Source: a virus
IMG/VR virus record: IMGVR_UViG_3300031758_000117
Coordinates: 1-51,399 of that record
Length of the DNA: 51,399 nt
Reading direction: 5' to 3' (one strand)
A program made the translations under genes and the position numbers. The notes under the pieces are model-generated. The model made no database searches. It was not told the origin of the DNA and saw only the letters and a list, made by a program, of their open reading frames with translations. Of the stretch, positions 5,558 to 49,580 are shown in pieces. How positions within the stretch are numbered: position 1 is the stretch's first letter; each line of letters opens with the position of its first letter.

Positions 5558-5560
5558 TTG

Positions 5561-8146
5561 TTATGTCCATTTGAGAATGACGATACCGCCACCACCAGAA
5601 CCACCTGTTGTTCCTGAGTTTTCAACACCACCGCCGCCACCACTACCAGTGGCAGCAGCTCCAGTAGTTCCACTAGTGGCAGGTCCTGTGCCACCACGAC
5701 CGCCTATACCCATGCCACCATCAGCACCAGGACCATCAGTATTGTTTCCACCACCGCCACCGCCAGCAGCATAACCTGTGTTTGATCCGGAAATTGATGA
5801 GAATATTCCTATGCCGCCATTACCTGCTGCTGGACCAGTTCCATTTTGTCCTACACCACCAGCACCACCACCGCCGGCACCAGCGTATTGTGCGCCACCA
5901 GGAGTTGATCCACCCGCACTACCCTCTGAAGGTGAATAACCACCAAGATTACCTGGCGCACCTGTTACTTGAATATAGCCAGTGGCGCCACCACCAGAAC
6001 CACCCGACATTGCTGCATAATATGCTGGTGCGGAATAACCACCACCTCTACCACCACCTGATGACCATACAGCAGTAAATGGTGAAGAACCAAAAATACC
6101 TGAATTAGAACCGTTTGTAGATTGTGCGCCAGGTGAAGGTGCGCCTGCTGCTCCACCACCACCAACACTGATGGTCATTGTTGCTCCAGGTGTAACTGTT
6201 AGTGCCGGACTTGTTCTAAAACCACCAGCACCACCACCGCCTGCACCAGCACCAGTACCACCGTCAGTGCCTCCAGCACCACCACCACCGACGATGAGAT
6301 ATTCAACACTTGTTACACCAGCAGGTACGTTCCATGTGGCTGTGTTAGAAAAGATTACGATTTTGTTTTGCACAGAGGAAACTTTGATGACTGCAAAACC
6401 AGAACCGCCGGCGCCACCATTATAAGCTGTTGCACCCGCATCGGTATAACCACCACCACCGCCGCCGCCACCACGATTCGTTAAACCGTTCCCACCGGTT
6501 GATGCTGATGGGGAATTCACCCCATTTGCACCACCACAAATAAAATGTCCGAAAGGTGCGTTTGTTGGGTTTGCATAGGCGCCGCCACCACCCCCACCTG
6601 CATAACCAACATTAGCACCAGTGATTGACGAAAATATTCCGATACCACCATTTGAAGAACCCGTTGGTGAGGCTGCTGGTCCACCAAAGCCGGCGCCACT
6701 AGCACCACCTCCTCCACCAGAACGGTCACTATTATTACCAGAAACACTACCACCAGCACCACCATCAAACCCCTGACCGGGAGTGGCTCTTCCTCCTGGT
6801 GTTGTATTGTTTATACCTCTACCATTACCACCACCTGAACCACCATTTCTACCATAACCACTATCGGTTGCAGCACCACCCCCACCACCTATCGCCGTGA
6901 ATAATGGAGCATTAGCTGTGTTACCAGCAGATAAGATTGTGTTTACTCCATTACCACCGGCGACTGGATGTGCGCCGGCTGAGCCACCAGCACCTATTGT
7001 TATTGTGTAAAGTTGATTTGGTCCTACGGAGTACCCCATACCTTGCAATAAACCACCTGCACCACCGCCACCACCTATACGAGCGCCACCGCCACCACCT
7101 CCAGCGACTAATAGATAATCAATTGATGTTACACCATCAGGTACTCTGAATTGTCCTGTGTTTGCAAAGACAAAAACTTGATTAGCGGGATTGTTGAATC
7201 GCCATTTGAGGATGACTACACCAGAGGCGCCACCACCTGCTTTACCATATTGACTGACAGGAGAACCCTGATAAGAACTACCTCCACCACCACCACCCGA
7301 ATTATTTGCACCACTTTGTGCTGTGGTAGTTGTGAACACAGGTGAAGAATTTCCTCCACCATATGAAGGATTACCACCACCACCAAAACCATTTATAGTC
7401 GCCGAAAAATATGCACCTCCACCACCACCTCCAGCATAACCAACATTGGCTCCAGTAATAGAAGAGAAAATACCTATACCGCCATTACCACCAGCAACCA
7501 CTGGGCTAGATGTGCCAGAAGTGCCTGCTGAACCAGCACCACCTCCACCCGCTGAGATATCACCTGGTCCAACTGTTACGGCGTTTCCACCACCAAATCC
7601 TTGTCCTGGTGTGGCTGCACCTCCTTGAAATGGAGCAACTCTTCCTGCACCACCACCCGAACCGCCAGAACATCCAGCAGTATTCAAAGGACTGGGATCA
7701 TCACCACCACCGGCACCACCACCCACTCCCCAAATAGCAGGAAATGGCGACGAAGACCAGATGCCAGAGTTTGAACCGTTTGAGCCTCTAGACGCTGCTG
7801 GACCAAAATTTCCTGCGCCACCACCCGCACCAACAACGATTGTATACAATTGTCCTGGTGTAACAACTAAGTTTGTTCCACTTAAAAACCCACCTGCACC
7901 ACCACCGCCACCCAATGTTCCACCAGCACCACCACCAGCAACGACAAGGTATTCAACCTGCGTTACACCTGATGGTGCTACCCAGGTTGTACTTTCATTG
8001 AAAACCTGAACACCAACAGACGGGTCTGGCCATAAGCCAGCAAGTCTACTGATACCTATTTGGTCAAGTGTCCAAATACCCGAAGCGCCAACAAATGACG
8101 ATGGGTTGTTTAGACCAATCAAACCGCCATTTAAACCTAAAGGCAT
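5561..8146 (-). CDS. glycine-rich three-domain adhesin-like tail protein (paralogue)
   Basis: An 861-aa paralogue of the downstream 822-aa protein. The heads align (NGGLIGL..., LWPDPSVGVQVF), and each of its three Gly-rich domains best matches the same-numbered domain of the neighbour: domain 2 of both starts NNPANQ-(I/V)-F-x-FANTGQFRVP, domain 3 of both starts QNK-x-x-IFSNTA. This indicates whole-gene duplication after the domains had triplicated. Domains begin near nt 8030, 7200 and 6385. The start ATG overlaps the stop of the 127-aa gene (TAATG), so translation is coupled. The role is probably receptor binding at a fibre tip, inferred from composition and position. Confidence 0.7.
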   Translation of the reverse strand: MPLGLNGGLIGLNNPSSFVGASGIWTLDQIGISRLAGLWPDPSVGVQVFNESTTWVAPSGVTQVEYLVVAGGGAGGTLGGGGGAGGFLSGTNLVVTPGQLYTIVVGAGGGAGNFGPAASRGSNGSNSGIWSSSPFPAIWGVGGGAGGGDDPSPLNTAGCSGGSGGGAGRVAPFQGGAATPGQGFGGGNAVTVGPGDISAGGGGAGSAGTSGTSSPVVAGGNGGIGIFSSITGANVGYAGGGGGGAYFSATINGFGGGGNPSYGGGNSSPVFTTTTAQSGANNSGGGGGGSSYQGSPVSQYGKAGGGASGVVILKWRFNNPANQVFVFANTGQFRVPDGVTSIDYLLVAGGGGGGARIGGGGGAGGLLQGMGYSVGPNQLYTITIGAGGSAGAHPVAGGNGVNTILSAGNTANAPLFTAIGGGGGAATDSGYGRNGGSGGGNGRGINNTTPGGRATPGQGFDGGAGGSVSGNNSDRSGGGGGASGAGFGGPAASPTGSSNGGIGIFSSITGANVGYAGGGGGGAYANPTNAPFGHFICGGANGVNSPSASTGGNGLTNRGGGGGGGGYTDAGATAYNGGAGGSGFAVIKVSSVQNKIVIFSNTATWNVPAGVTSVEYLIVGGGGAGGTDGGTGAGAGGGGAGGFRTSPALTVTPGATMTISVGGGGAAGAPSPGAQSTNGSNSGIFGSSPFTAVWSSGGGRGGGYSAPAYYAAMSGGSGGGATGYIQVTGAPGNLGGYSPSEGSAGGSTPGGAQYAGAGGGGAGGVGQNGTGPAAGNGGIGIFSSISGSNTGYAAGGGGGGNNTDGPGADGGMGIGGRGGTGPATSGTTGAAATGSGGGGGVENSGTTGGSGGGGIVILKWT

Positions 8147-8529
8147 TAGCTAATCTCTTCGAACGATGAGATGAAGTGTAGACGATTGTTTGCATCAGCC
8201 CTGACTCTGATATTATCACCTTCTTCTAAGTAAAGTGATTTTGACAGAATATCAAGTGATGATTTGGCAGGTACAGTAACTACGTTTGCGATTGCATAAA
8301 CTGAGTTACCAACACCTGTGCTTGAATTTTGTGCGCCAAATTTAAACAGTTCTACTGATACATTGCCAGCGTTTGTTCCGTCAACATTTGATACAATCAG
8401 TGTGTTAATTTTAAACACTTTATTTGAGTTGACGGGATTAACAATTACTGATGATGCAACGGTAGTAATGTTGGCGACATTACTTTTACCTCTAATATCT
8501 AATACGCTAACAATGTTTGGCGCAGCCAT
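8146..8529 (-). CDS. small virion beta-protein, family A
   Basis: A 127-aa beta-rich protein with the segments KVFKINTLIVSNVDGTNAGN-VSVELF and SLYLEEGDNIRV. The same outline (a central 'xxIxIxNxxxxxxxxVSVxL' strand set, then an 'LxxGDxLxV' strand) recurs at 11232-11570 and 12041-12373, so I treat the three as one family. Such proteins are usually annotated in marine phages as structural or unknown. The gene follows a family-B gene and precedes a glycine-rich adhesin, exactly as at 11232-11570. An RBS GGAGGTTAATAA precedes the ATG. It may be a fibre collar or adaptor, which is inference from the cassette. Confidence 0.6.
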   Translation of the reverse strand: MAAPNIVSVLDIRGKSNVANITTVASSVIVNPVNSNKVFKINTLIVSNVDGTNAGNVSVELFKFGAQNSSTGVGNSVYAIANVVTVPAKSSLDILSKSLYLEEGDNIRVRADANNRLHFISSFEEIS

Positions 8530-8532
8530 TTA

Positions 8533-8898
8533 TTAACCTCCGAAAATGATTGAGCCGACTAAGCCCGAACCTGTAATTTTTGAATTTGCTGATGGTGAAA
8601 ATTTTGCTACTGTTACTGAACCATCGACTGGAACTTGTGTCGCCATGACACCATTACCTAAATGGTGTGCAACAACATTATTTGTACCTGATGCTGGTGG
8701 TGTTGTAAAGACAAGGTAATCTACATTTAATGTATAATCGACACCTGGAGTCTTATAAGAACCATCAACAAAAACTGCCACAGAAGCAGCAGTAGCAGGT
8801 ATGCGTATCATTGGTCCAAAGACCGTTTCGCTACCTGTACCACTGAAAACATCAGCAGTAAAAGGTACAGATGTTACTTGATTTCCAATGTACGACAT
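8533..8898 (-). CDS. small virion protein, family B (MSYIGN)
   Basis: A 121-aa protein starting MSYIGNQVTSVPFTADVFSG. It shares layout with 11586-12041: an N-terminal M-x-YIGN, then FSGTG-x-x-T-x-F, a 'VxVxVDGxxKTPGxDYTL' strand set, and a C-terminal 'VTVAKFSP...GSIIFGG' tail like the VTQTALASG...FLFGG tail of its paralogue. YIGN proteins with this repeat are common in marine phage fibre clusters. A late promoter (GATAAATA) ends 20 nt upstream, so this gene starts a transcript that also covers the family-A and glycine-rich genes. A structural role is inferred. Confidence 0.62.
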   Translation of the reverse strand: MSYIGNQVTSVPFTADVFSGTGSETVFGPMIRIPATAASVAVFVDGSYKTPGVDYTLNVDYLVFTTPPASGTNNVVAHHLGNGVMATQVPVDGSVTVAKFSPSANSKITGSGLVGSIIFGG

Positions 8899-8916
8899 TT
8901 AATTCCTTATTTGTTT

Positions 8917-9333
8917 TTATTTATCAGTTCTTACCGGTGGCTCACCATCAGGTCTTGGAAACTTATCATTCACTTCTTTAATAGCGTTATGAAATTTAGT
9001 TCCTTTTCCTGGAATTTCACTGTTGTCCATTGCATCATAAAGATGATTAACCAATGTAACAATATCAGGATAGTTTGCAGCACGGTCTAAAAAGTGCTGC
9101 CAATATTCAATAAACTTATTCTGATATTCCAGTTCATCAAAAATCTCATCTCTTGTGGGTGGCTTTGAACCCGATTCATCTTCCCAACGAGTGAACTCAA
9201 AGTGTCCACCCGATGCAGACATATCATAACGAGCATGTGGTCTGAGTGCTTTAATCGCAGTATCAATACCACATACAAGTTTGTTGTTGTTACCAATTAA
9301 ATATTGTGCATAAGAAATTTGTTCGTTATTCAT
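8917..9333 (-). CDS. unknown; possible fibre assembly chaperone
   Basis: A 138-aa soluble protein. It starts MNNEQISYAQYLIGNNNKLV, followed by IKALRPHARYDM, then a W-E-D-x-S-G-S-K-x-P-T-R-D-E-I segment and a helical C-terminal half. The order 'alkyl residues - RPxAxxxxx - WxDxxxxxPTxxEI' recalls XkdW/tail-assembly-chaperone proteins encoded next to fibres, but the similarity is weak and unsearched. The gene sits between two adhesin cassettes, with a good SD (AAAGGTG) and its own late promoter 23 nt upstream. Function is unproven; it could also be a virion component. Confidence 0.5.
   Translation of the reverse strand: MNNEQISYAQYLIGNNNKLVCGIDTAIKALRPHARYDMSASGGHFEFTRWEDESGSKPPTRDEIFDELEYQNKFIEYWQHFLDRAANYPDIVTLVNHLYDAMDNSEIPGKGTKFHNAIKEVNDKFPRPDGEPPVRTDK
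8918..8925 (-). promoter_or_regulatory. late promoter GATAAATA
   Basis: GATAAATA on the minus strand, inside the last codons of the 138-aa gene and 20 nt upstream of the family-B gene at 8533-8898. It matches the NATAAATA late consensus. Confidence 0.65.
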
Positions 9334-9355
9334 TCAATCACCTTTAAAATAAAAC

Positions 9356-9363
9356 TATTTATT
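9356..9363 (-). promoter_or_regulatory. late promoter AATAAATA
   Basis: AATAAATA on the minus strand, 23 nt upstream of the ATG at 9333 and just after the stop-proximal region of the 615-aa glycine-rich gene. Confidence 0.65.
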
Positions 9364-9370
9364 TGACACT

Positions 9371-11218
9371 TTACCATCTAATAATTACAACACCAGAACC
9401 GCCGGAACCAGAAACTATATAACTGCCGGCTCCACCACCACCTGTGTTATTATTACCAGAGCCAACATATTGACCACTAGGAGTAATAACGGCATTTGTT
9501 CCACCACCAAATGGTGTGCCTAACCACGGTGCGCCATCAGAGTAACGAGCATATCCACCACCACCTCTACCTTGGCCAAAAAGATTTGCTGCTGGTTGAC
9601 CACCATCACCCGAACCGCCACCACCGCCAGCATATGCTACATTTGAGCCTGATAGTGTGGAAAACAAACCTATACCACCGTTACCACCAATCATTGGTAG
9701 GCCATTAGCATTTCCACCTGAGCCTCCCGCACCACCACCTCCACCACCGGAGTTTGTTCCATTACCTGGAGTAGAATCGCCGCCAGCACCACCAGAATTT
9801 CCTTCTGAAGGACTGTATCCGCCAATGTTGCCTGGACCACCCGGATCACCAGCACGACCACCTCCACCGCCGGATCCACCTGCCATACCTCTACCCGAAC
9901 CGCCTTTAGCACCACCGCCGCCACCTGATGACCAAATAGCAGGAAACGCTGGACCCGTGCCATAAATTCCAGAGTTTGAACCATTACCACCAATTGCTGT
10001 ATTACCAGCACCACCAGCGCCAATAACAACAGTCAGTGTTGCAAGTGGTGTTACTCCTACATTCGCACCTATTCTAAATCCTCCAGCACCACCACCTCCT
10101 GCACATTGCTGAAATGGTATGGCTGCGCCAGCACCACCAGCACCACCACCACCAAGAACGAGATACTCAATTTCTGTAATACCATTTGGAACTTCAAACA
10201 AACCAGTGGTTGTATATACAGCGATTCTTGAGTTTTGATTTGATGTAGAAGTTTGTTGATATTTTAAAACAATGTAACCCGAACCACCAGAACCTCCAAC
10301 ACCACCAGCAAATCCACCATTAAAAGAGCCGCCACCACCACCACCGCCACTGTTTGTTCCGCCGTTTCCACCCACTAGACCGGGTGAGGATGCACCAGAG
10401 TTAATTCCATTACCACCCACACCATTTGGTGCGCCTGACTCCGCTGAACCGCCTCCGCCACCACCAGCACCACCCGAACCGGCAGGTCCTCCACCAGAAC
10501 CAGCACTACCACCTCCACCGCCAGCCCAATAGTATGCTATGCCACTTAGTGATGATAAAATTCCTGAACCGCCCGAACCACCTCTTTGTGCCGGCGCTCT
10601 AAGAGCATTTGCTCCATTTGCAGCAGCACCGCCTCCGCCACCACCATTATAGTCACCACCACCGCTACCAGTTCTTACACCATTACCACCACCAAATCCT
10701 TGAACTGGAGTTACTCCTGTGTCAGCATTATTCCAATAATTTCCAAAACCACCAGGAATATCAGCGCCAGGATTGGATGCACCACCACCGCCACCAGAGC
10801 CACCCGAACTGCCTGGCGCTGACAAACCAGGACTGGATGCACCACCACCAGCAGACCAAACATTTGCAACACCAGACCAAATTCCCGAGTTTGAACCATT
10901 TGCACCGCTGCCACCACCAGCACCAATTACAACAGTAAATGTATCATTAAATTGAATTTGAGGCGCTGTAAGATAACCTAATCTGAATCCTCCAGCTCCG
11001 CCGCCACCGCCGGCGCCGGCTCCACCACCTCCACCACCAGCAACAATCATATACTGAACATTTGATGTACCAACAGGAACAGTCCAAGTATTTGAGTTTG
11101 CAAATGTACGAGTTATGTTTGCAGTATATACAACGCCAGGAGTAACAGCACCACCAAAACCGGGCACGGTCATTCGTTTGAGCGATATTCTACTTACGGA
11201 GATTCTATTCAGAGCCAT
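9371..11218 (-). CDS. glycine-rich two-domain adhesin-like tail protein
   Basis: A 615-aa protein with an Arg/Ser-rich head (MALNRISVSRISLKRMTVPG) and two Gly-rich domains. Domain 1 opens TRTFANSNTWTVPVG (about nt 11115), domain 2 opens RIAVYTTTGLFEVPNG (about nt 10235). Both have the YLVLGGGG / VTPLATLTVVIGAGG / GGSGVVIIRW framework of the 822- and 861-aa proteins, but the sequence is more diverged and one domain is absent. It follows a family-A gene, as does the 861-aa protein, so the adhesin cassette has been duplicated as a unit. The inferred role is fibre-tip receptor binding. Confidence 0.7.
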   Translation of the reverse strand: MALNRISVSRISLKRMTVPGFGGAVTPGVVYTANITRTFANSNTWTVPVGTSNVQYMIVAGGGGGGAGAGGGGGAGGFRLGYLTAPQIQFNDTFTVVIGAGGGSGANGSNSGIWSGVANVWSAGGGASSPGLSAPGSSGGSGGGGGASNPGADIPGGFGNYWNNADTGVTPVQGFGGGNGVRTGSGGGDYNGGGGGGAAANGANALRAPAQRGGSGGSGILSSLSGIAYYWAGGGGGSAGSGGGPAGSGGAGGGGGGSAESGAPNGVGGNGINSGASSPGLVGGNGGTNSGGGGGGGSFNGGFAGGVGGSGGSGYIVLKYQQTSTSNQNSRIAVYTTTGLFEVPNGITEIEYLVLGGGGAGGAGAAIPFQQCAGGGGAGGFRIGANVGVTPLATLTVVIGAGGAGNTAIGGNGSNSGIYGTGPAFPAIWSSGGGGGAKGGSGRGMAGGSGGGGGRAGDPGGPGNIGGYSPSEGNSGGAGGDSTPGNGTNSGGGGGGAGGSGGNANGLPMIGGNGGIGLFSTLSGSNVAYAGGGGGSGDGGQPAANLFGQGRGGGGYARYSDGAPWLGTPFGGGTNAVITPSGQYVGSGNNNTGGGGAGSYIVSGSGGSGVVIIRW

Positions 11219-30966: not shown

Positions 30967-31998
30967 TTAGTTCAGATCAATTCTAGGTGCCTTGAATGTC
31001 ATATTACCACCTGATGTTATTTTACATGTACCGCCAATGTCTGCTTGAAAATTTCCACTTACCTTTAAAGTTGCGTTTTTATTTACTGTTGCCGACAAGT
31101 TTTCACCAATAGTTGCTGTAACATTCTTGTCCACTTTAATCGTAGCATTCTGTTTCACATAAACCTCAGCGTCACCTTGCACGGTCACAAAACATTTACC
31201 CATGATATAAACACGGTCATTACCCATCACAATTTCATAATTGTCTTTTGTAATCTTTTCTACTTTATCACCGTTAGGAAACCATTCTTGAAATGAACCG
31301 TTGCGGTGTGCAAGTTGAATACGTTCTTTACCAACAGTATCATCAAACTCCACAATATGACCCGATTCCGTTTCAGTCACATTGTTGTATGGATATTTTG
31401 CAGCATACTGTGTTGTTGGTTCTGTCCAAGTGCTAGTAGCAGTTGGCACAGATTTTACTACATTATCTTTACGTTCTTGTATAAACGTCTTTGACATGTT
31501 TTCATCATTACGAGCCAGTCGTGACGTTGTTGGCTCATCTAATATTCTCGGATAGGATTCAGCAGCAGATTTTTCTGTAATCTTGATACCGCTTCCATCT
31601 GTGCTATAAGTTTTTGACGCTGGTGTTCTTGGTGAACTTTGTAATTCAGAAGAACTTCTTGCGTCATTAAATCCGTTTTGACGATTGGCTGCTGCAAGAG
31701 GTATGCCAGGAAGAACACCTAGAATCACAGGCTGCTGTGCATTCTCACCATCAAAGAAAAATCCAAAGACCATATCACCTTCACGTGGTGGGTATGTGTC
31801 TCTTGTATTCACAGGTAAAGAGGATTGCGCCCAAGGTAAGTTGTCTGTTGGTAACAGAGATTTATTATCTGTATGCCAACCAACACAACGAACTTTGCAA
31901 CGACCTAATTTTAATGGGTCACTAATTTTTTCAACAACACCAACCCACCAAATAAAACCATTTTTACCAGCGAAATCTTTATTTTCAGTAACTTCCAT
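30967..31998 (-). CDS. 5: baseplate central spike, gp5-like without lysozyme
   Basis: A 343-aa protein. Residues about 14-100 are the OB-fold domain of gp5/VgrG spikes (GFIWWVGVVEKISDPLKLGR, REGDMVFGFFFDGENAQQPV). A low-complexity linker follows. Residues about 246-343 are the repeating beta-helix needle (V-x-x-x-x-V-x-x pattern in VQGDAEVYVKQNATIKVDKN). T4 gp5 (575 aa) has a lysozyme domain between these parts; here it is absent. The start overlaps the hub gene by 14 bp. The PAAR protein two genes down would cap the needle. Confidence 0.85.
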   Translation of the reverse strand: MEVTENKDFAGKNGFIWWVGVVEKISDPLKLGRCKVRCVGWHTDNKSLLPTDNLPWAQSSLPVNTRDTYPPREGDMVFGFFFDGENAQQPVILGVLPGIPLAAANRQNGFNDARSSSELQSSPRTPASKTYSTDGSGIKITEKSAAESYPRILDEPTTSRLARNDENMSKTFIQERKDNVVKSVPTATSTWTEPTTQYAAKYPYNNVTETESGHIVEFDDTVGKERIQLAHRNGSFQEWFPNGDKVEKITKDNYEIVMGNDRVYIMGKCFVTVQGDAEVYVKQNATIKVDKNVTATIGENLSATVNKNATLKVSGNFQADIGGTCKITSGGNMTFKAPRIDLN

Positions 31999-37062: not shown

Positions 37063-37794
37063 ATGTTACCAAAACTTGATGTACCAATTTATACTATTAA
37101 ATTGATTTCAACAGGACAAGATGTTCGTATTCGACCATTTCTTGTCAAAGAACAAAAACTATTTTTAATGGCAGCAGAATCAGAAGATTCTAAAGATGTT
37201 ATCTCCACAATTCGCAGAGTTCTTAAAAACTGTGTACTAGATGACATCGATATTGATTCGTTACCCACATTTGACCTTGAATATTTGTTTATGCATCTTC
37301 GTGCAAGGTCGGTAGAAGAAGTTGTTGACCTAAAATATAAATGCAACAACATTCTGAAAAACGATAAAGGTGAAGATACAACATGTAACGGTTCTGTAGA
37401 CTTTAAGTTGAATCTACTGGAAATTGAACCAACGGTCCATGCGAATCATGAAAACAAATTTATGTTGAATGAACGAATCGGTATTTGTTTAAAGTATCCA
37501 ACTTTTGAGATGGTTCAAAAATATGAAAGCATGAATGAGAATGAAATTTTAGTAAATGTGTTAATTGATTGTATTGAATATCTGTACGACGATGAACAAG
37601 TATATTATGCAAAAGATTCCAGCCATGAAGAGTTGGTTGAGTTTGTAGATTCAATGTCGCAGAAAGACTTAGAAAAGATTAAACTATTCTTTGACACAAT
37701 GCCAGAACTGAAGAAAGACGTACACTTTAAATGTGGCAAATGCGGTTACGAAGAAGAAATTGAGATTAAGGGCTTACAAAATTTTTTCGCCTAA
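37063..37794 (+). CDS. 26: baseplate hub/assembly protein gp26 (T4_baseplate family)
   Basis: A 243-aa protein of the gp26 family (Pfam T4_baseplate, from memory). It has LPKLDVPIYTIKLISTGQDV, RIRPFLVKEQKLFLMA, DLEYLFMHLRARSVEE and CysCys pairs: C110/C120 region and CGKCG near the end, which may bind zinc. T4 gp26 (208 aa) acts in hub assembly and its gene precedes 51. SD GAGGAAATT lies before the ATG. The last codons read through a run AAATTTTTTC that can slip by -1 into an open extension (see 37788-37982). Confidence 0.75.
   Translation: MLPKLDVPIYTIKLISTGQDVRIRPFLVKEQKLFLMAAESEDSKDVISTIRRVLKNCVLDDIDIDSLPTFDLEYLFMHLRARSVEEVVDLKYKCNNILKNDKGEDTTCNGSVDFKLNLLEIEPTVHANHENKFMLNERIGICLKYPTFEMVQKYESMNENEILVNVLIDCIEYLYDDEQVYYAKDSSHEELVEFVDSMSQKDLEKIKLFFDTMPELKKDVHFKCGKCGYEEEIEIKGLQNFFA
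37779..37788 (+). promoter_or_regulatory. candidate -1 ribosomal frameshift site (AAATTTTTTC)
   Basis: In the gp26 frame this reads A AAT TTT TTC. Both A-AAT-TTT and T-TTT-TTC fit the X-XXY-YYZ slippery pattern. Two codons later the zero frame stops (TAA 37792-37794), while the -1 frame stays open for 64 codons. No downstream pseudoknot was identified by eye. Confidence 0.6.
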
Positions 37795-37982
37795 TCTTTC
37801 GTTATGACACACTGAGTAATTATTATCAGACAAACTTTGCCTTAATGCAGCACCACAAGTATAGTTTGACTGAACTTGAAGAAATGTTACCTTGGGAAAG
37901 AACCATTTATTTGGGTCTTTTGATGCAGTATTTGGAAGAAGAAAAAGAACGTATCAACGCACAAAAACAGGCAAGACGATAA
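37788..37982 (+). CDS. -1 frame extension of gp26 (gp51-position, LPWER protein)
   Basis: The -1 frame is open from 37770 to a TAA at 37980-37982. Slippage at T TTT TTC would fuse residue 242 of gp26 to 64 residues (RLIFRYDTLSNYYQTNFALM, then QHHKYSLTELEEMLPWERTI and YLGLLMQYLEEEKERINAQK). This has a protein-like, helical composition. The only ATG in frame is 37845, with no SD, and would discard the NYYxxNFxLM segment. A fusion of about 306 aa is therefore more likely. Alternatively it is a separate 45-aa protein. Location matches T4 gene 51 (hub assembly), but homology to gp51 is not shown. It ends one base before the next ATG. Confidence 0.62.
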   Translation, partial: RLIFRYDTLSNYYQTNFALMQHHKYSLTELEEMLPWERTIYLGLLMQYLEEEKERINAQKQARR

Positions 37983-39635
37983 ATGGCAAAAAAGAAAGAA
38001 GAAACAAAAAAGGGTCTTTTATCTTCTATTTTTGGTAAAAAAGAAAAGAAGAAAGAAACATCACCGACAAAAGAAGGTGTTGAGCAAAAAACAGAAGAAC
38101 CAACGGTTGGTTCTAACGTACTTCCTTTTCTTGATTTAATTGCTAAACAATCTCTTGCCTTTCCAGGCATGGCAAGAGATGTCAATGTGCTTCGCCAAAA
38201 TATCGCCAAACTTGTAAAGATTAAAGGTGAAACTGCCGCAACTAAAGCAGATAAGTTTTTTAAATCTGAAGATCAGCGTGAATCAGAATTAGAGGCAACG
38301 AGATCAAAGAGTAAAGCAGCAACGCCAGCAACAGAAAAGGGTGGTAAAGAAGCAGCACCAAAAGAGGAAGGTGGTATTGGTGGTTTGCTGAGTATGCTGA
38401 ATCCAGTGAAGTTAATTGGTGGTCTGATTACTGGTATTGTTGGTGGTTTTGCGGCACTGTTTAGCGGTGGTTCAATACTTGCATTACTAAGCAAGATATT
38501 TGTACCTGCTATGCTGATTGGTGGTCTAATCAATGGTATTCTTGATGGCATCAAAGTATGGAAAGAAAGTGGTAGCATTGTAGATACACTCGTTGCTGCA
38601 CTTGGTGGATTCTTAAAATTCATTACGTTTGGTTTGTTTGGTGAAAAAGAACTTCGTCAAGGAATGGATTCGGCATTAAAAATGATGATGCCTCTGTTAC
38701 TTGGTGTCACTGAACTTTTTGATAAAGTTATTACATGGATTAAAAACAATGTGGGATTTCCGGGTATAACAATACCCCTGTCAAAAGCAAATGCTTTAAT
38801 TCCAGAATGGGCACAAGAACGTGGTTTAAAATTAAAAGATTATACTATACCACCATATTATCCATTTAAGAAAGACACAAGTAGCACCAAAGCAGAAACA
38901 TACACATCATCTGCTACAACATCATTGAAAGAAATGAGTGGTAAACTTGATTCTGGTGAAGGTGTGTTCTATGATAAAGCAGCAAAAGATAGATTAGAAG
39001 ACAAACCAAAAGAAAAAGAAAAACAAGAAAAACAAAAAGCATCTCAACAAGCACTTGCTGAAACAGTAAGCAAGTCACCTACGCCCGACCCATATAGTCC
39101 AGTCAATGCAGAAAAGAGTCAAGATGCTGCAAAAGGTTTTCTAAGTTCTAAGGTTGGTATCAATGTTGACCCATCTTCATCAACTGGCTACACAGATCAA
39201 GCATCAGGTAAACCAGTATCGGAAGAAGAAGTTCGCCGTAAAGTTATTGCCGTTGGTGGTGAGCCAACCAAGATTCTACAAATGGCAAAAGGTGCAAGTA
39301 CATCACCCGCACCTGCTGCACCCGCTACTGGCGGTGGTGATGTTGGCGGTGCTTCCATGTCAACAGGAGGCGCCACAGGTGGTGCAGTGAGTTCAGGTGG
39401 CGCAGCACCTTCATCGCCTATGCCAACACCAGCCATGTCAGCACCATCGGGTTCTGCAATATCATCAGATTCGGCAACAGTTGCAGAAGGGCAAAGAATG
39501 GATGCGGCTGCTGATGCGGGAACAATTGTAAATGCACCAACGACAAGCACAACATCTGGACAACAAGCCCCATCTTCTGAAAGTGTCGCTGATCCATACA
39601 ACTCAAGTTTTATGAATAATTATCTAGCGGCATAA
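37983..39635 (+). CDS. hub/tail membrane-active protein, triad member 1
   Basis: A 550-aa protein. Residues 1-45 are very Lys/Glu-rich. Residues 61-100 hold the motif PGMARDVNVLRQNIAKLVKI ... KADKFFKSEDQRE, shared with the next two genes. Residues about 143-190 are strongly hydrophobic (GGLITGIVGGFAALFSGGS onward), followed by ITFGLFGEKELRQGM (214-228), also shared. The C-terminal 120 residues are Ala/Ser/Gly/Thr-rich. It has no hydrolase domain. Position after gp26 suggests a hub or tape-measure role (T4 gp29 is 590 aa), but similarity to gp29 is not evident. The ATG directly follows the -1 frame stop. Confidence 0.6.
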   Translation: MAKKKEETKKGLLSSIFGKKEKKKETSPTKEGVEQKTEEPTVGSNVLPFLDLIAKQSLAFPGMARDVNVLRQNIAKLVKIKGETAATKADKFFKSEDQRESELEATRSKSKAATPATEKGGKEAAPKEEGGIGGLLSMLNPVKLIGGLITGIVGGFAALFSGGSILALLSKIFVPAMLIGGLINGILDGIKVWKESGSIVDTLVAALGGFLKFITFGLFGEKELRQGMDSALKMMMPLLLGVTELFDKVITWIKNNVGFPGITIPLSKANALIPEWAQERGLKLKDYTIPPYYPFKKDTSSTKAETYTSSATTSLKEMSGKLDSGEGVFYDKAAKDRLEDKPKEKEKQEKQKASQQALAETVSKSPTPDPYSPVNAEKSQDAAKGFLSSKVGINVDPSSSTGYTDQASGKPVSEEEVRRKVIAVGGEPTKILQMAKGASTSPAPAAPATGGGDVGGASMSTGGATGGAVSSGGAAPSSPMPTPAMSAPSGSAISSDSATVAEGQRMDAAADAGTIVNAPTTSTTSGQQAPSSESVADPYNSSFMNNYLAA

Positions 39636-39636
39636 T

Positions 39637-41706
39637 ATGCTATCAGAAAAACTTGGGTTGACCATCAGTAAAAAAGTTTTAAATAAAACTTCTACTAAAA
39701 GAACTTCACCCACAGTCAAAAAACTCCAAAAAACTTCTTTGAATTTTATGGCAGTCTCACGAATTGCCAGAGACTTGAACATCATTCGTCAAAACATTAT
39801 TAAACTTGTAGAGATTTATGGTGGTAAGGCATCAGAAAAAGAAGACATGCATCTTCTAAAGGATGACGAGCGTGAAAGAAAATTCAAGGTTCTTCAAGAC
39901 GAATTTATAAAAAAGAATACACAATCTGAAGATGATGAAAAATCTTCTAAAGGCAAGTTATTCAAAAAATTTAAAAAGTTTGCCAAAGATCAAGTAAAGA
40001 AACTAAAAGAAAATCTTTTAAAATTATTTGATAAGATAAAAAAACTTGCCAAGCAACTTGTAGGTAAGATTAAAGATTTTGCCAAAAATACATTGAAATA
40101 CTTTGAAGAAGCCTTTGAGAAGTATCTACGACCGATGGTAGACAAACTCAAAGGTAAACTTGAAAAGAAAATGGCTAAGATGGCTGAGAAGTCGGCTGTC
40201 AAAGTAGCATTTAGAGGTATTGCAGCCGCAGCCGGTCCGATAGGTTGGATTGCATTAATCATTTTAACTCTGTGGGATGGCTTAACTGATGCATGGGATA
40301 CATGGCAGTCTACAGGAAGTTTATATGAAACAATCAAAGCAGGTATCGCTGGAGTTGTTGACTCACTCACATTCGGTTTATTTGATAAAGACACAGCCAA
40401 GAAAGTAATAGACGGCACTGTAGACTTTATAAAAAACTTTCCCGAAAGATTATCCAATTTTATTAATGATACATCAGATCACATCTTTACATTTGTGAAT
40501 AATGCTATTGATAAAATGATGGAGATGAATCCGCTAAAAGAAAAACCTCTCAGTGAAAAGGAACTTGGTGCAATTGTAGACCAACAAAAAGCCGCTGAAG
40601 AAGCAGCAAAGGCGGAAGTAGAAAGACAAAAACAAGTTGCCGAAAATTTAGCCAAAGCACGTGAAATCATTCTAATGAAAATGGAAGAGCGTGACCGTTT
40701 AATTGATGAAGTTGCCGTTTTAGAAGAACAATCAATGGGTAAACCATCAGAAACAACTAAAAAACTCCAAGAGAAAAGAGAAGAACTACGTACATCCGAA
40801 AAAGGTTTAGCTGATGCTATTCAGCGTGAACAACAGGCAAAAAAAGAAGCGTATGCACCAAAGCCTTCTGCACCTGGTGGTGTTCCACCATCAGCACCAA
40901 CAAAAGTTTCTGGTCGTGATGAACTTGTAAAAATTATTGTTAAAGAGTTGCAGAATGTTGGCATCACAAATAAATTTGCAATCATTGCGACTCTAGCCAA
41001 TGTACAAAAAGAAACTGGCTTTAAGAATTTTGAAGAAAATATCTTAGCATACAAAAACACAGCAAACGATAGAATACGACAAGTATTCACGACCAGAGTT
41101 AAAAATTTCTCTGATGCTGAGTTACATGAAATTAAAAAAGACCCATACAAGTTTGCTGAAGTCATATATGGCAGTAAAACTACAATCGGTAAAGGAATGG
41201 GTAATACTGCCGAAGGTGATGGTTTCAAATACATCGGTCGTGGCTTTATTCAGTTAACCGGTAAAAACAACTATGCTCTGTACGGAAAACTGGCTGGTGT
41301 AGATTTAGTAAACAATCCGGCACAGTTACTTGATCCCATTGTAGCAGCAAAAGTAACGGCACAGTTTATTCTTAAAGCAGCAGGCAGTAAAGTCAATTCG
41401 TTCACATCTCAATCGGAAGCCAATCGTGCTATTACACAAGCAATTGGTGGCAAATCTCTCAACCTAGACAAAGGTATAGGTGCTGAGATTCTGGCAAAGG
41501 TTGACAAATATTCATCCGACTTTAGTGGTGTTGAATTGTCATCAACAAGTAAAGAAGTATCACAAGGTCAAAGAGAACAACTCAAACCTAAAGATGCCGA
41601 TGTTATTAATGTGGCGCAAACAAATAATACAAAAGGTTATGACACAAAGACCGTAGCAACAAAAAAGAGTGACTCTAACGAAGTAGCAACGGCAAGAGTA
41701 GCATGA
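39637..41706 (+). CDS. hub-linked murein hydrolase, GH19 domain, triad member 2
   Basis: A 689-aa protein. Residues about 35-85 carry the triad motif (SRIARDLNIIRQNIIKLVEI, then EDMHLLKDDERERKF). A Lys-rich helical part follows, then a hydrophobic patch (AAAAGPIGWIALIILTLWDG, about 196-215) and SLTFGLFDKDTAKKVIDG (243-260). Residues about 310-405 form a coiled coil. Residues about 425-628 are a GH19 chitinase-like lysozyme: TLANVQKETGFKNFEEN with E459 as a catalytic candidate, and YIGRGFIQLTGKNNYALYGK. It would cut glycan strands, probably during infection because it is encoded in the hub cluster. Confidence 0.78.
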   Translation: MLSEKLGLTISKKVLNKTSTKRTSPTVKKLQKTSLNFMAVSRIARDLNIIRQNIIKLVEIYGGKASEKEDMHLLKDDERERKFKVLQDEFIKKNTQSEDDEKSSKGKLFKKFKKFAKDQVKKLKENLLKLFDKIKKLAKQLVGKIKDFAKNTLKYFEEAFEKYLRPMVDKLKGKLEKKMAKMAEKSAVKVAFRGIAAAAGPIGWIALIILTLWDGLTDAWDTWQSTGSLYETIKAGIAGVVDSLTFGLFDKDTAKKVIDGTVDFIKNFPERLSNFINDTSDHIFTFVNNAIDKMMEMNPLKEKPLSEKELGAIVDQQKAAEEAAKAEVERQKQVAENLAKAREIILMKMEERDRLIDEVAVLEEQSMGKPSETTKKLQEKREELRTSEKGLADAIQREQQAKKEAYAPKPSAPGGVPPSAPTKVSGRDELVKIIVKELQNVGITNKFAIIATLANVQKETGFKNFEENILAYKNTANDRIRQVFTTRVKNFSDAELHEIKKDPYKFAEVIYGSKTTIGKGMGNTAEGDGFKYIGRGFIQLTGKNNYALYGKLAGVDLVNNPAQLLDPIVAAKVTAQFILKAAGSKVNSFTSQSEANRAITQAIGGKSLNLDKGIGAEILAKVDKYSSDFSGVELSSTSKEVSQGQREQLKPKDADVINVAQTNNTKGYDTKTVATKKSDSNEVATARVA

Positions 41707-43424
41707 TAAGAGAAATATTAGGCAAATCCATTTCGAATAAACTTTTTGGTTTATCGAAACAAGACAAAGAAAAAGAAGAGCAAAGAAAAAATACTTTGCT
41801 TGGTGTCTCTGCGCTTAAAATAATATCTAAAAATATGCTTGTTCTTCCACGCATGGGAAGAGATTTAAATGCATCAACAAAAGGCTTTAGTAAATTTCTT
41901 ACAAATGAAACTGGTGAAAAACCAGCAAAAGAAAGTTTGTTGAGTAAACTTGCACCATTAAAAGATAGTTTCACACAAGTTAAATTAAAAGAACCAAAAG
42001 AAAAAAGACAAAAGAAAGAAAAAAAGCGCAGATCGCTGCTCGAAATAATCTTCAAGCCGTTAATCACTGCTGCTACTCTTTTGTTTACAGTCTTTATCTT
42101 CAATAAAGATTTGGTACTTGATGTTTTAGAAATGTATGGTGGCGTTGAAGGTATTATTGGTTCAGCACTAGATTCTCTTTACTCTTCAATCTCTGGATTC
42201 TTCTCATCATTTAATTTTGGTGAAATCATAACAGATGAGATGTCCACATTCATTGAGTTCATTTCTTTTGGACTCATTTCAAAAGATGATGCTACCAAAG
42301 TTTTAGAAAGTATCGGTAGTTTTATAAAGCCTGTGACAGACCGTGTGGGCTATTTTATTGGTGGCATCGCAGATTGGGTAAAAGAAAAACTCATGTCTTT
42401 TGGTCGTTCACTTGACAAAGGACTTGGTGTAGAAACAAAGGGTGTTAAAGAAGAACGAAGAAAAGAACTTGAAGAAGATCCGTATGCCAATGCAGTAGAA
42501 ACTATCAAAGCACTTGATGAAGATATTTCTTTGCTCAAAGGTAGAATCGTTTCACTCAAAGAATATCTCGAAAAGAAAAAACAATACGAACAAGAAAAAG
42601 CAGAAGGTCGTGCAGTAAGAGAAGCACCCACTCCACCACCAGCAATAACACCAACAAAACGAGTATCAGATAAGTCCATATTTGCACCAAAAGAAGCAGC
42701 ACCTTCTGGTGGACCATTAGCAACACCAATTAAAGGTAGTCCTAGTGAAGTGCCTTCAGGTCAACCAGTAACTAAACCAGCAGGTAACTTAGACAGCATC
42801 ACAAAAAAAGCGGATCCTGGTGTAGATACATCAAAGTTCAACGGTGAGTTTCAGCGCCGGATTGAATTGATGGCCACAGCATTTAAACAAGAAACTGGCA
42901 AAATGCTGTTGATCACATCTGGTTATCGTTCAAACGAAAAACAAAAAGAACTATATGATGCAGACTTAGCAAAAAACAACGGCAAGCCAAGTGGTAAAGT
43001 GGCACAGCCTATGGCTCCTTTGGGTCAAGGAAAAGGCAGCGTTCACATGCAAGGTCTTGGTATTGATATCAATAGTAAAGGTCCTGATGGGTTAAATGTT
43101 CTTGCCGGCACCAGAGATAATCCTACTGGTTGGTTAGAAAAATTCGGACTGATTCGTAATGTCAAAGGTGAAGATTGGCACGTTACTGTAGGTGGTGCAC
43201 CACCAACTCCTGATGATAAAGAAGTACCTGATAAAAAAGGAAATGCTGTTGATGTTGAAACTGGTAAGGTTGTTCAAGGTGCCAACATTGGTAAATCATC
43301 AAATGAAATTGCAGTTGAACAGCGCAATCAATCGAAACCAAAAAATCCTACAGTCGTGAATGCTGGTGTAACAAACAACACTACAATCATCAGAGAAGAA
43401 AAAATTATACCAGCGACAGCATAA
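41703..43424 (+). CDS. hub-linked M15 peptidase, triad member 3
   Basis: A 573-aa protein starting within the previous stop (ATGA overlap). The N terminus has the triad motif (SKNMLVLPRMGRDLNASTKG). A Lys-rich stretch leads to a hydrophobic segment (about 113-133) and FISFGLISKDDATKVLESIG (187-206). Residues about 265-300 are coiled coil, then a Pro/Ser-rich linker. Residues about 375-498 are an M15/VanY-type metallopeptidase: SGYRS (406-410), H448 and D455 in SVHMQGLGIDI, and H493 in EDWHVTVGG as zinc ligands. It would cleave peptidoglycan peptides, complementing the GH19 partner. A hairpin terminator follows the gene. Confidence 0.78.
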   Translation: MIREILGKSISNKLFGLSKQDKEKEEQRKNTLLGVSALKIISKNMLVLPRMGRDLNASTKGFSKFLTNETGEKPAKESLLSKLAPLKDSFTQVKLKEPKEKRQKKEKKRRSLLEIIFKPLITAATLLFTVFIFNKDLVLDVLEMYGGVEGIIGSALDSLYSSISGFFSSFNFGEIITDEMSTFIEFISFGLISKDDATKVLESIGSFIKPVTDRVGYFIGGIADWVKEKLMSFGRSLDKGLGVETKGVKEERRKELEEDPYANAVETIKALDEDISLLKGRIVSLKEYLEKKKQYEQEKAEGRAVREAPTPPPAITPTKRVSDKSIFAPKEAAPSGGPLATPIKGSPSEVPSGQPVTKPAGNLDSITKKADPGVDTSKFNGEFQRRIELMATAFKQETGKMLLITSGYRSNEKQKELYDADLAKNNGKPSGKVAQPMAPLGQGKGSVHMQGLGIDINSKGPDGLNVLAGTRDNPTGWLEKFGLIRNVKGEDWHVTVGGAPPTPDDKEVPDKKGNAVDVETGKVVQGANIGKSSNEIAVEQRNQSKPKNPTVVNAGVTNNTTIIREEKIIPATA

Positions 43425-46450: not shown

Positions 46451-47002
46451 TCATGAACTTCTCTTTGCCTTATTATAGAATAAATGTCTGCCGATTTGCA
46501 CAGTGTATCTCATATTATTCCAACCTGGTTTTACATAGTCTGCATGAAAGAACAAAGCACCTTTTGTTGGATCTTTAAACTTCTCAGTATAAAGATAAAA
46601 CGCCAATGCTAACTCAGTAACACTATTATACAACGAATTGCTCTCTAGTGTCAAGAGGCCTTTTCGCATCATATCCTTAGGACGATTTTCACATACCCAA
46701 GAGAATTGGCAAACAGTGCCAACTTTTTGTTTCACAACACCGCAATAGGTATCTGGAAATACACCAGACTGCATCCGATTGTGTGTAACGAATGCTACAG
46801 CAAGTTGACCTAATCTTGGTTCTAGTCCTGCTTCAAAATACATGTTCTGTGCAAGGCATTCTACTTCAGCCCTAGCATCGGGTGATAAATCTTGTAGTTG
46901 AACTCTTGGTTCAATCGGTACTTTTATTTGTGCTGCTGCGTGTCCAATGTAAACAACAAATGCTGCAAATATACTACAAAGTAATAGTGTGATGTAACGC
47001 AT
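46451..47002 (-). CDS. SleB/CwlJ-type cell wall hydrolase, secreted
   Basis: A 183-aa protein. Residues 1-24 are a signal peptide (RYITLLLCSIFAAFVVYIGH, then AAA). The Hydrolase_2 domain follows: VECLAQNMYFEAGLEPRLGQ with catalytic-candidate E57, LAVAFVTHNRMQSGVFPDTY, and VCQFSWVC. SleB-type enzymes are peptidoglycan lytic transglycosylases. Such genes are common in marine T4-like phages and may give host lysis or wall remodelling. SD AGGAG precedes the ATG. It is distinct from the virion-linked GH19 and M15 hydrolases. Confidence 0.85.
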   Translation of the reverse strand: MRYITLLLCSIFAAFVVYIGHAAAQIKVPIEPRVQLQDLSPDARAEVECLAQNMYFEAGLEPRLGQLAVAFVTHNRMQSGVFPDTYCGVVKQKVGTVCQFSWVCENRPKDMMRKGLLTLESNSLYNSVTELALAFYLYTEKFKDPTKGALFFHADYVKPGWNNMRYTVQIGRHLFYNKAKRSS

Positions 47003-47390: not shown

Positions 47391-48074
47391 TTAATCCCAG
47401 AGACCACGGTAGTATTTACCAAACAAACGAAAACCATTGTCCATACGGTCGTAAACTTTTCTCATGCCATCGTAGTCACATTCATATGTGTGATTGGGAC
47501 CATCTTCAAATGTGTAGAGTGTTGGCTTACCATTTTCATCCCATTCGCATGGAACAGAATGTGTATCAATCTCACCAGAACGATATGCTTCTTCCCATGA
47601 ATCATCAACGAAATGTTCAAAGGCAAAAATCATTTCATTCAATACCCATTCCCAACGACGATGGGTAATTTCCCACGAATCTTTTTCGTATTGTCCTTGA
47701 TCATCAAACACCAATTCAAGTTGTGGTGAAGCATCTTGATGTCCAACAATACGCAGTTCTTCTGGCACATCTTCAACATCAACCATTGGTGAACCGTGTT
47801 TGGTATCACGCAGTTGTTTCAACATCGGTAGAATGATATCTGCCAATGTATGATCCATTGACCATGTATCATAACGGTCAATCTTCACATAGTTTATTTT
47901 TGGATGTACAAAGTCAAGAAACTTTTGCCATGATACGCTAAATGGGGTCAGAAAGTCGGAAAGTTTTTTGATGATTGGTTCATCATATTCAATCTCACGC
48001 CAAAAGAAAATCTTCTCCAGTATAACATAAGGAGAAAGCCAATGATTACGATAATTTGATTTGTAGATTTTCAT
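47391..48074 (-). CDS. conserved T4-like phage protein, unknown
   Basis: A 227-aa acidic protein with unusual Trp content. Key stretches: SNYRNHWLSPYVILEKIFFW, VKIDRYDTWSMDHTLADIIL, PMLKQLRDTKHGSPMVD, WVLNEMIFAFEHFVDDSWEE, and the C-terminal GFRLFGKYYRGLWD. I recognise this as a conserved phage protein whose function is unknown. The charged D/H residues in 'DTWSMDHTLAD' are possible active-site candidates. It starts 18 nt after the tmRNA 3' hairpin; no SD is seen. Confidence 0.7.
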   Translation of the reverse strand: MKIYKSNYRNHWLSPYVILEKIFFWREIEYDEPIIKKLSDFLTPFSVSWQKFLDFVHPKINYVKIDRYDTWSMDHTLADIILPMLKQLRDTKHGSPMVDVEDVPEELRIVGHQDASPQLELVFDDQGQYEKDSWEITHRRWEWVLNEMIFAFEHFVDDSWEEAYRSGEIDTHSVPCEWDENGKPTLYTFEDGPNHTYECDYDGMRKVYDRMDNGFRLFGKYYRGLWD

Positions 48075-48139
48075 AATGTATTGAATTTGGTGTAGAGTGT
48101 TTTGGTAATAAGGTACACTCCACTAAAACCCCATGAGAG

Positions 48140-48181
48140 TTAAGCCGCTAGGCGTTCTTCTCCGTAAAATGCGTCATTTGC
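48140..48181 (-). other. tmRNA proteolysis tag ORF
   Basis: From the GCA resume codon at 48181 the frame reads ANDAFYGEERLAA and stops at TAA (48142-48140). The AND start and LAA end match known ssrA tags; LAA is the ClpXP/ClpAP degron end (family knowledge). Confidence 0.9.
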
Positions 48182-48265
48182 ATTTATAGATTTGCTTGAT
48201 TAACGATCATCGCCTATCGTGTTGCCTTCTCCACTATCTCACCCTGTCGAAACCATGTCTAGCCC

Positions 48266-48352
48266 ATCAGAAGTGTCCTGCTGTTCACAGGTCGGGAATT
48301 CCAATCCTCAGAGTCTTGTTAAACTCTTACATATCACCCTAAACAACACTTC
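48266..48352 (-). other. tmRNA intervening segment (removed)
   Basis: The 87 nt between the encoded CCA (ends 48353) and the coding-piece 5' G (48265). Its ends pair (48352-48346 with 48276-48270, 7 bp), continuing the acceptor stem in the precursor, as expected for a permuted tmRNA. Confidence 0.8.
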
Positions 48353-48407
48353 TGGTGGACTAGGTGGGAGTCGAACCCACGTCCAGAATGCCTTCACTTT
48401 GAAGGGA

Positions 48408-49580
48408 TTACAACAATTCTTTCAAACGTTCTTCTATTCCAAGATTTTTAATATTTTGCACATAACTTAGAACTGGCCAAGACCCTATGCTTCTTTCAAA
48501 TGAAACTGTATGTGGTTTTTTTAAAGTTTTTTCATCCAAAGCTACTTTTATAATTTCAGAAAATTTAGTTTTATTTTTAAAATTTTCTTTTATAATATTT
48601 TCACCTAATTTTTGAGCATATTTCCAAAACTCGTTATTATATACTGAGCCTGAAAAATAATGCAAGCATATCATTGCTTCAGTTTCGGTTATTTCTCTTT
48701 TATAGAATTCATTTACTGCATTTTGATTAAATTCTTTCGTATACCAATAATCAAAAGAAAGTCTATTAATATAATCTGAAAATCCCGTAGATGTAGCCTC
48801 AAGTGGTTCAAGAAAATAAGAAGCGTTACCATTGTAACAAACTCTAACATCAAAATTTTGTTTTCTGGAATAATTTCTAAATTTTAGTTTTCTAGTCGCC
48901 GTTGGCACCAAATTAAATTCATCAAGTATGTCCTGAACTTCCGTTATGATATCCTCTTCAGTACAATATTGATCATTATAAACATAACCTATGGCGCATC
49001 TATTTTTTAATGGTATTCCAAAAACCCAACCAAATTTTTTGGCGAATGTTAATGAATAAAAAAATTTCGGCATATCCCAAGGACACTGAAATACCATAGC
49101 GGCATTTACTGGTATGTGATCATGAACAGTATAATCTTCCATCAAATCTTTAGGTGATCCAGTACACATCATAACATAATCACTATCAACAGAATCAGGA
49201 GTTGGTATATTTGATTCTATCAAATTAACTCTTGGATCATTCCTCATTTTTTCAAAGATATAATCTTGTAACTGAACTGCATTGAAATGTAGTCCATGGT
49301 CACCAGCAAGAAATGTGTGTTTAAAATCTTCGCCTTGACCCCAGTTTCTTTTCCAAATACCCAGTTTTGGAGTAGAGTTCACATTATCCATGTCAACGCT
49401 ACTAAATCCTAACGTTTCTCTGAGAGATTTCGGAAATATTAAATTCGTTCCTTCTCCTACCGGAGTAGTTTCAATAAGAGGATCATAAATCCAATCTATA
49501 TTCCAATTGGTATATCTAAGATAATGTGCTACTGATAAGCAACCAACCGTGCCTCTACCAACTATCGCTATTTTTTTCAT
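48408..49580 (-). CDS. flavin-dependent halogenase (tryptophan-halogenase family)
   Basis: A 390-aa protein. The FAD fold starts IAIVGRGTVGCLSVAHYL (GxGxxG at 8-13). GEGT is at 43-45 region, catalytic-lysine candidate K72 in TPKLGIWKRNWG, WxxxIP motif W185-VFG-IP190 (second Trp of WxWxIP replaced by Phe), and FLEPLEATS (256-264) with E261 aligned to PrnA E346. It is shorter than typical members (about 500-540 aa). A related enzyme, VirX1 from cyanophage Syn10, is a halogenase (literature from memory). GC is low for the window (7 of 60 at 48541-48600), suggesting recent acquisition. Its stop abuts the tmRNA gene. Substrate is unknown. Confidence 0.82.
   Translation of the reverse strand: MKKIAIVGRGTVGCLSVAHYLRYTNWNIDWIYDPLIETTPVGEGTNLIFPKSLRETLGFSSVDMDNVNSTPKLGIWKRNWGQGEDFKHTFLAGDHGLHFNAVQLQDYIFEKMRNDPRVNLIESNIPTPDSVDSDYVMMCTGSPKDLMEDYTVHDHIPVNAAMVFQCPWDMPKFFYSLTFAKKFGWVFGIPLKNRCAIGYVYNDQYCTEEDIITEVQDILDEFNLVPTATRKLKFRNYSRKQNFDVRVCYNGNASYFLEPLEATSTGFSDYINRLSFDYWYTKEFNQNAVNEFYKREITETEAMICLHYFSGSVYNNEFWKYAQKLGENIIKENFKNKTKFSEIIKVALDEKTLKKPHTVSFERSIGSWPVLSYVQNIKNLGIEERLKELL

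Follow-up and report, generated by a model that had tools for sequence, protein, structure and literature searches.

Three tandem paralogs, two with predicted wall hydrolases, in the tape-measure slot of a T4-like phage

Why would a phage place three related proteins in a row where such T4-like phages as HTVC008M have one large protein, and why should two of the three carry what look like enzymes for cutting the bacterial cell wall? The locus that raises these questions lies in a 51.4 kb fragment of a freshwater T4-like virus, record IMGVR_UViG_3300031758_000117 (51,399 nucleotides, analysed whole and referred to below as the window): three consecutive plus-strand genes, here called X, Y and Z, at 37983-43424, just where a preliminary description of the DNA had put them. 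That description took their products for "hub proteins" built on a common scaffold. The common scaffold is real; "hub proteins" gives way below to "tape-measure-type proteins". That X, Y and Z are tape-measure-type proteins doubling as an entry lysin is a reading to which we assign a probability of about 0.65.

Homology of core and tail

X (37983..39635; 550 residues) is without a hydrolase; Y (39637..41706; 689 residues), which starts 1 base past the end of X, carries a GH19 domain; Z (41703..43424; 573 residues), whose first 4 bases are also the last 4 of Y, carries an M15 domain. The three are true paralogs. BLASTP relates X to Y (E = 5e-9 and 2e-8), Y to Z (8e-7) and, weakly, X to Z (0.006); hhalign with family alignments of 14-18 relatives each gives 1e-13 for X-Y, 2e-12 for X-Z and 2.5e-11 for Y-Z. 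Profiles restricted to the cores (23-25 diverse rows each) yield 1.6e-15, 1.6e-15 and 9e-15, while the reversed-sequence controls stand at 5e-5, 0.06 and 0.02; these controls matter because such E-values are per pair, not per database. The relatedness of N-terminal and FGL segments, on which the preliminary description had staked its case, is accordingly clear.

The shared N-terminal motif is present in all three proteins: the full ARDxNxxRQN is found only in X (segment of residues 47-80, 38121..38222, with the motif MARDVNVLRQNIAKLV at residues 63-78) and Y (IARDLNIIRQNIIKLV, 39715..39816), and the form in Z, MGRDLN (41802..41906), is degenerate. The central hydrophobic and (I/L)(T/S)FGL segments are as first described. 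Hydropathy finds four hydrophobic segments in X and one each in Y and Z, and these regions, which include the FGL segments TFGLFGEKEL, TFGLFDKDTA and SFGLISKDDA, respectively, span residues 132-257 of X (38376..38753, where conservation also marks them), 185-292 of Y (40189..40512) and 112-232 of Z (42036..42398). By the same measure T4 gp29 and the putative HTVC008M tape measure have hydrophobic segments as well. Not noted in the preliminary description was a second region of homology, the C-terminal tail (39441..39632 in X, 41527..41703 in Y, 43278..43421 in Z), with pairwise E-values of 3e-5 to 5e-12 (reversed, 0.2-0.6) and the common pattern S..VA.GQR...VxNAxxTNNT. Each protein is thus laid out as an N-terminal core, an exchangeable cargo and a C-terminal tail.

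Structure prediction adds little to this. AlphaFold2 models are mostly helical and of low confidence (mean predicted local distance difference test score, pLDDT, of 47 for X and 38 for Z) and were set aside, save for one small domain of X. Foldseek of X against the PDB returned no match with E < 1, and PDB profile searches from the X and Z alignments returned no meaningful match.

Exchangeable cargo between conserved flanks

What do the cargo slots hold? In Y it is a GH19 domain (residues 425-626, 40909..41514; Pfam 3.2e-6, 27.6 bits over a cut-off of 25.5; PHROG 181, "endolysin", 3.8e-28; PDB entry 8p8e, 1.2e-12), whose acidic residue E459 and GDG at 527-529 are invariant across 16 relatives, two of them with divergent GH19. 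In Z it is an M15/VanY domain (residues 366-500, 42798..43202; Pfam 3.2e-6, 27.4 bits over a cut-off of 25), with H448, D455, E490 and H493, the zinc and catalytic residues of HxxxxxxD and ExxH, invariant across 18 relatives. Both assignments of the preliminary description are borne out by Pfam matches and intact catalytic residues, and the two predicted hydrolases would be expected to be active. The C terminus of X, by that account merely Ala/Ser-rich, has more to it: a small conserved domain (residues ~370-440, 39090..39302) occupies the slot that the hydrolases fill in Y and Z, and it is predicted to fold (pLDDT 84-89 within an otherwise low-confidence model, with conserved columns), without a Pfam or PHROG match. 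Pfam finds no gp5 domain in X, Y or Z.

Relatives were gathered by scanning IMG/VR with Z and then X as query; with near copies removed at 95%, 30 complete loci remained, 22 of them X-Y-Z and 8 X-Y only. In all 30 the set has gp26 and/or gp51 as one neighbor and gp32 as the other, and the genes are tightly packed (gaps of -7 to +6 bases). The two-gene phages are without Z; in one of them (L110) the cargo slot of X holds a different, charged sequence that looks coiled-coil-like by eye. A further three-gene lineage is represented by L203, which is complete, and by L195 and L202, in which a contig end cuts the third gene. Among 50,697 phage records tblastn of X found no match, and tblastn of Y and Z, among the matches listed, reached others only through the hydrolase domains; GH19 matches in BUCT-ZZ01 and the huge phage LR756502 were dismissed as other proteins without the three-gene design.

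A core-only tree gathers each of X, Y and Z of the three-gene phages into one group (Shimodaira-Hasegawa-like approximate likelihood ratio, SH-aLRT, 99%), with internal branching orders that are much alike; across the 22 three-gene loci the core distances of the three proteins correlate closely (Mantel r 0.96, p 0.0002). Separate groups, matching order and correlated distances together indicate that the triplication is older than the divergence of the clade and that the cores have descended as a set; the branches are long, so the deep order is unsure.

The cargo has not been inherited so faithfully. No relative has a hydrolase in X, by Pfam and targeted searches. In Y of the three-gene phages it is GH19 of several subtypes, GH24 phage lysozyme (L085, L088, L091, L092, L093 and L123), SLT transglycosylase (L105) or GH73 glucosaminidase (L103), the last two in loci additional to the 22; in Z it is M15/VanY or M23 (L093, L095, L096, L101 and L106). 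The two-gene relatives carry mostly GH19. Parsimony puts the minimum at three fold replacements for Y and two for Z, with the class of enzyme unchanged. How locally the exchanges are confined can be seen by comparing Y of L032 with that of L036: identity stands at 92-100% for the greater part of the core, drops to 20-40% within most of the hydrolase and recovers to 83-84% in the tail, which Y retains through hydrolase swaps. Equally sharp drops at the cargo occur in the Y pairs L085/L105 and L101/L103 and in the Z pair L093/L085. The proposal of a triplicated scaffold bearing a pair of hydrolases, one for glycan and one for peptide, therefore holds up well: the pairing is kept in 22 non-redundant three-gene loci despite repeated replacement of folds.

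Is the division of labor, a glycan cutter on Y and a peptidase on Z, something that selection maintains? None of the 26 Y domains and 24 Z domains in three-gene loci departs from it, and two two-gene phages (L207 2076-4553 and L210 3548-6073) join GH24 phage lysozyme and M15/VanY on one protein, so that the pair occurs naturally fused. Both observations argue against shared ancestry and small sampling as a sufficient account, yet such an account, while unlikely, deserves to be taken seriously: only five fold replacements are involved, and tossing a coin would give the pattern 1 time in 32; in the cyanophages S-N03 and S-CREM2 both enzymes are glycosidases; and among the two-gene relatives, which are less constrained, the Y-type core of L205 (10493-11977), 87% identical to that of L213 (3685-5460), bears M15 where L213 has GH19. 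Judged from these sequences, of which L205 is cut by a contig end, the difference is a recent swap across enzyme class, and a strict universal class rule is rejected on its account. (L213 has, in addition, an extra minus-strand open reading frame at 5460-6302, between Y and gp32, with a signal peptide and a porin-like look.)

The tape-measure slot

The designation "tape-measure-type" is preferred to "hub" because of where the genes lie. X directly follows the tail-assembly chaperone genes, as tape measures do: gp26 (T4 baseplate hub and tail-assembly chaperone family; 37063..37794, plus strand; Pfam T4_baseplate 2.7e-59, PHROG 150) and, immediately 5' of X, a 45-residue gp51-like open reading frame (37845..37982, plus strand) that is kept at the same spot in related loci and matches the annotated gp51 of Melnitz, HTVC008M and phiM12 in phmmer (2e-13 to 2e-8). 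In these three phages the slot after gp26-gp51 holds one large protein, annotated "putative tail tape measure" in HTVC008M and as having "similarity to phage tape measure proteins" in phiM12. One small gene intervenes (HTVC008M, L051 16021-16353; Melnitz, L050 12262-12591; phiM12, L049 7511-7930); its product has an EF-hand-like motif (DxNGDGK or DLDGDGK) and hydrophobic segments, and the window has none. A possible link through sequence is provided by the two-gene locus L110, whose Y core matches PHROG tape measures (phrog_58, 3e-10; phrog_991, 7e-10).

Cyanophages offer a second comparison. Most have two large proteins in the gp26-gp51 slot (S-CRM01 has one), with N-terminal regions that are mutually homologous (8.5e-16; reversed, 0.02); the best connection to the window is between the Z core and cyanophage gene 2 (E 1e-7, probability 94%; reversed, 2e-3). 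Both members of the pair have been found in virions of S-CREM2, with 73 and 71 peptides (PMC10665884), and of S-SCSM1, in a study that regarded them as non-structural enzymes (PMC9602691).

If these proteins are rulers, their lengths should speak. Gene lengths were compared with published tail lengths for eight cyanophages, the latter from different laboratories: S-SRM01 (tail ~100 nm; gene 1 of 536 and gene 2 of 636 residues), S-SZBM1 (114 nm; 893 and 780), MS29 (124 nm; 932 and 990), S-H34 (129 nm; 943 and 735), S-N03 (138 nm; 933 and 722), S-CREM1 (165 nm; 1016 and 991), S-SCSM1 (173 nm; 950 and 1131) and S-CREM2 (418 nm; 1565 and 1456, the longest pair seen; L142 6484-15555). Spearman coefficients are 0.95 for gene 1 and 0.79 for gene 2; without S-CREM2 that for gene 2 falls to 0.68 (p 0.09), and with tail lengths of such diverse origin the relation amounts to support, not proof. 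S-CREM2 apart, each protein taken alone comes to 5.2-8.0 residues per nm, which fits rulers lying side by side. The corresponding figures for T4 gp29 and lambda gpH, at the familiar lengths of those tails, are ~6.0 and 6.3. Rulers in tandem, end to end, are rejected for most cyanophages, since one protein at 5-8 residues per nm already accounts for the tail; such an arrangement would suit S-CREM2 alone.

Several observations weigh against a tape-measure role. Profile comparisons detect no homology of X, Y or Z to T4 gp29, which is itself reported to escape BLAST in the more distant T4-like phages (PMC2147016). The cyanophage link is moderate, other core pairings being weak or near their controls, and the C-terminal tail anchor is not common to the cyanophages. 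The pair is missing from the virion protein list of S-SZBM1, and S-CREM2, with 3.5-3.7 residues per nm, falls outside the range of the others, through a difference either in how its tail was measured or in how the proteins are arranged. Finally, Y varies from 686 to 912 residues in three-gene phages without X (~530-640) or Z following suit, and hence Y is not a strict ruler.

The last point, together with the four hydrophobic segments of X as compared with one each in Y and Z and the existence of phages that do without Z, can be turned into an alternative: X is the sole ruler, and Y and Z are lysin carriers derived from tape measures, docking in the hub lumen through core and tail without spanning the tube. 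We consider this improbable: both cyanophage paralogs scale with tail length, mostly at 5-8 residues per nm, and core and tail are retained and co-evolving in all three proteins. Much further down the scale is packaging of X, Y and Z in the capsid as head-internal or ejection proteins, proposed for the two "endolysins" of S-CREM2, a homologous pair (PMC10665884); the genes lie in the tail and hub cluster after gp26-gp51, the cores are hydrophobic in the manner of tape measures, and the relation of length to tails speaks against it too. Least credible of all is a role for Y and Z as endolysins in lysis, acting at release, as the name of related PHROG families would have it, since the window has another gene for a cell wall hydrolase, of SleB type (46451-47002, minus strand; Pfam Hydrolase_2, 4e-21), which is likely the lysis endolysin and distinct from Y and Z, relatives occur in purified virions, and the hydrolases are embedded between hydrophobic core and conserved tail.

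A proposed path through the tail, and its counterparts

How might tape-measure-type proteins that double as an entry lysin work? The chaperones gp26 and gp51 probably help to fold X, Y and Z, which are probably anchored on the gp27/gp5 hub with the short C-terminal tail as anchor; they would lie side by side within the tail tube and set its length. On contraction they would be the first to leave the tube, the Y glycosidase cutting glycan strands and the Z metallopeptidase cutting peptide bridges at one spot, while hydrophobic core segments might help to form a membrane channel for DNA, a passage role already proposed for T4 gp29 (PMC8718954). The task of the wall lysozyme, borne in T4 by the gp5 spike, would have moved to Y and Z. 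The gp5-like central spike of the window (30967..31998, minus strand; 343 residues, by profile searches an OB domain and a C-terminal trimerisation domain) fits such a transfer, domain searches having found no lysozyme domain in it.

In T4 there are three copies of gp29 per tail, and gp27 and gp5 are trimeric (table in PMC3004832), so that three paralogs could form one heterotrimer. In its full form this idea, tentative and somewhat short of an even chance in our estimation, is that the tape measure is an obligate heterotrimer of one X, one Y and one Z: three ruler strands in a threefold tail, one structural, one for cutting glycan and one for cutting peptide, with modules swapped only within enzyme class and the cyanophage pair as the two-component form.

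The window as a whole, by Pfam and PHROG searches and the list of open reading frames, encodes a T4-like tail module: gp5, gp27-like, gp53 and gp48 on the minus strand; on the plus strand, in order, gp4-like (by position), gp2, a gp19-like tube protein, gp26, the gp51-like frame, X, Y and Z; then, after Z, gp32 on the minus strand. A permuted, two-piece transfer-messenger RNA (tmRNA) gene lies at 48049-48456 (minus strand; Rfam tmRNA_permuted 144 bits, beta_tmRNA 139 bits; ARAGORN tag ANDAFYGEERLAA). The fit to the betaproteobacterial model suggests such a host, and this T4-like phage probably infects a betaproteobacterium. Three large Gly_rich_2 (Pfam) proteins (3089-11218, minus strand) are likely tail-fibre gene products; the stretch, with strong skew and a GC fraction of up to 0.51 versus 0.37, was perhaps recently acquired.

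Comparison with known systems shows what is and is not new. T4 gp29 resembles X, Y and Z in comparable length, a hydrophobic segment and a proposed hub and tape-measure role; it differs in being the product of a single gene, without a hydrolase, and its phage carries the lysozyme on gp5. That lysozyme and the cargo of Y and Z share the same presumed task, local digestion of the wall at entry, on different proteins. Siphophage tape measures with wall-hydrolase motifs, such as that of mycobacteriophage TM4 (PMC1796659), likewise carry a peptidoglycan hydrolase that aids entry, but there one tape measure has one motif, whereas here a glycosidase and a peptidase are divided among three paralogs. 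Closest is the cyanophage pair (T4-GC 13 and 14 of P-SSM2; PHROGs 790 and 1200; S-SCSM1 gp159 and gp158; S-CREM2 gp208 and gp209), with its place after gp26-gp51, homologous N-terminal regions, variable C-terminal hydrolases, presence in virions by published mass spectrometry and one member already named tape measure in RefSeq. It differs in having two genes, another C-terminal tail, moderate core homology to the window proteins and no fixed pairing of enzymes (GH73 with M15, GH19 with GH24, none with M23, or no hydrolase found).

The preliminary description knew of no named system of this kind, which is right only in part: the two-gene version does have names, "endolysin" for PHROGs 790 and 1200 and "tail length tape measure protein" for S-SCSM1 gp158. 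Tape measures that bear enzymes are already known, as is the cyanophage pair, in the form of annotations. In the literature outside subscription no paper was found that describes the paralogy, the set of three genes, the shared tail or the co-inheritance of cores with class-preserving exchange of cargo, or that takes the cyanophage "endolysins" for a pair of tape measures.

Proteins so far classed as endolysins or hypotheticals would thereby acquire a testable model, in which hetero-oligomeric tape measures bring two matched enzymes for cutting the wall through the tail. With the strands labelled by natural paralogs, the asymmetry of the tail becomes measurable, which bears on the stoichiometry of tape measures and on their fit to a sixfold tube; and the conserved flanks of the cargo mark natural junctions for modular exchange in a phage tail.

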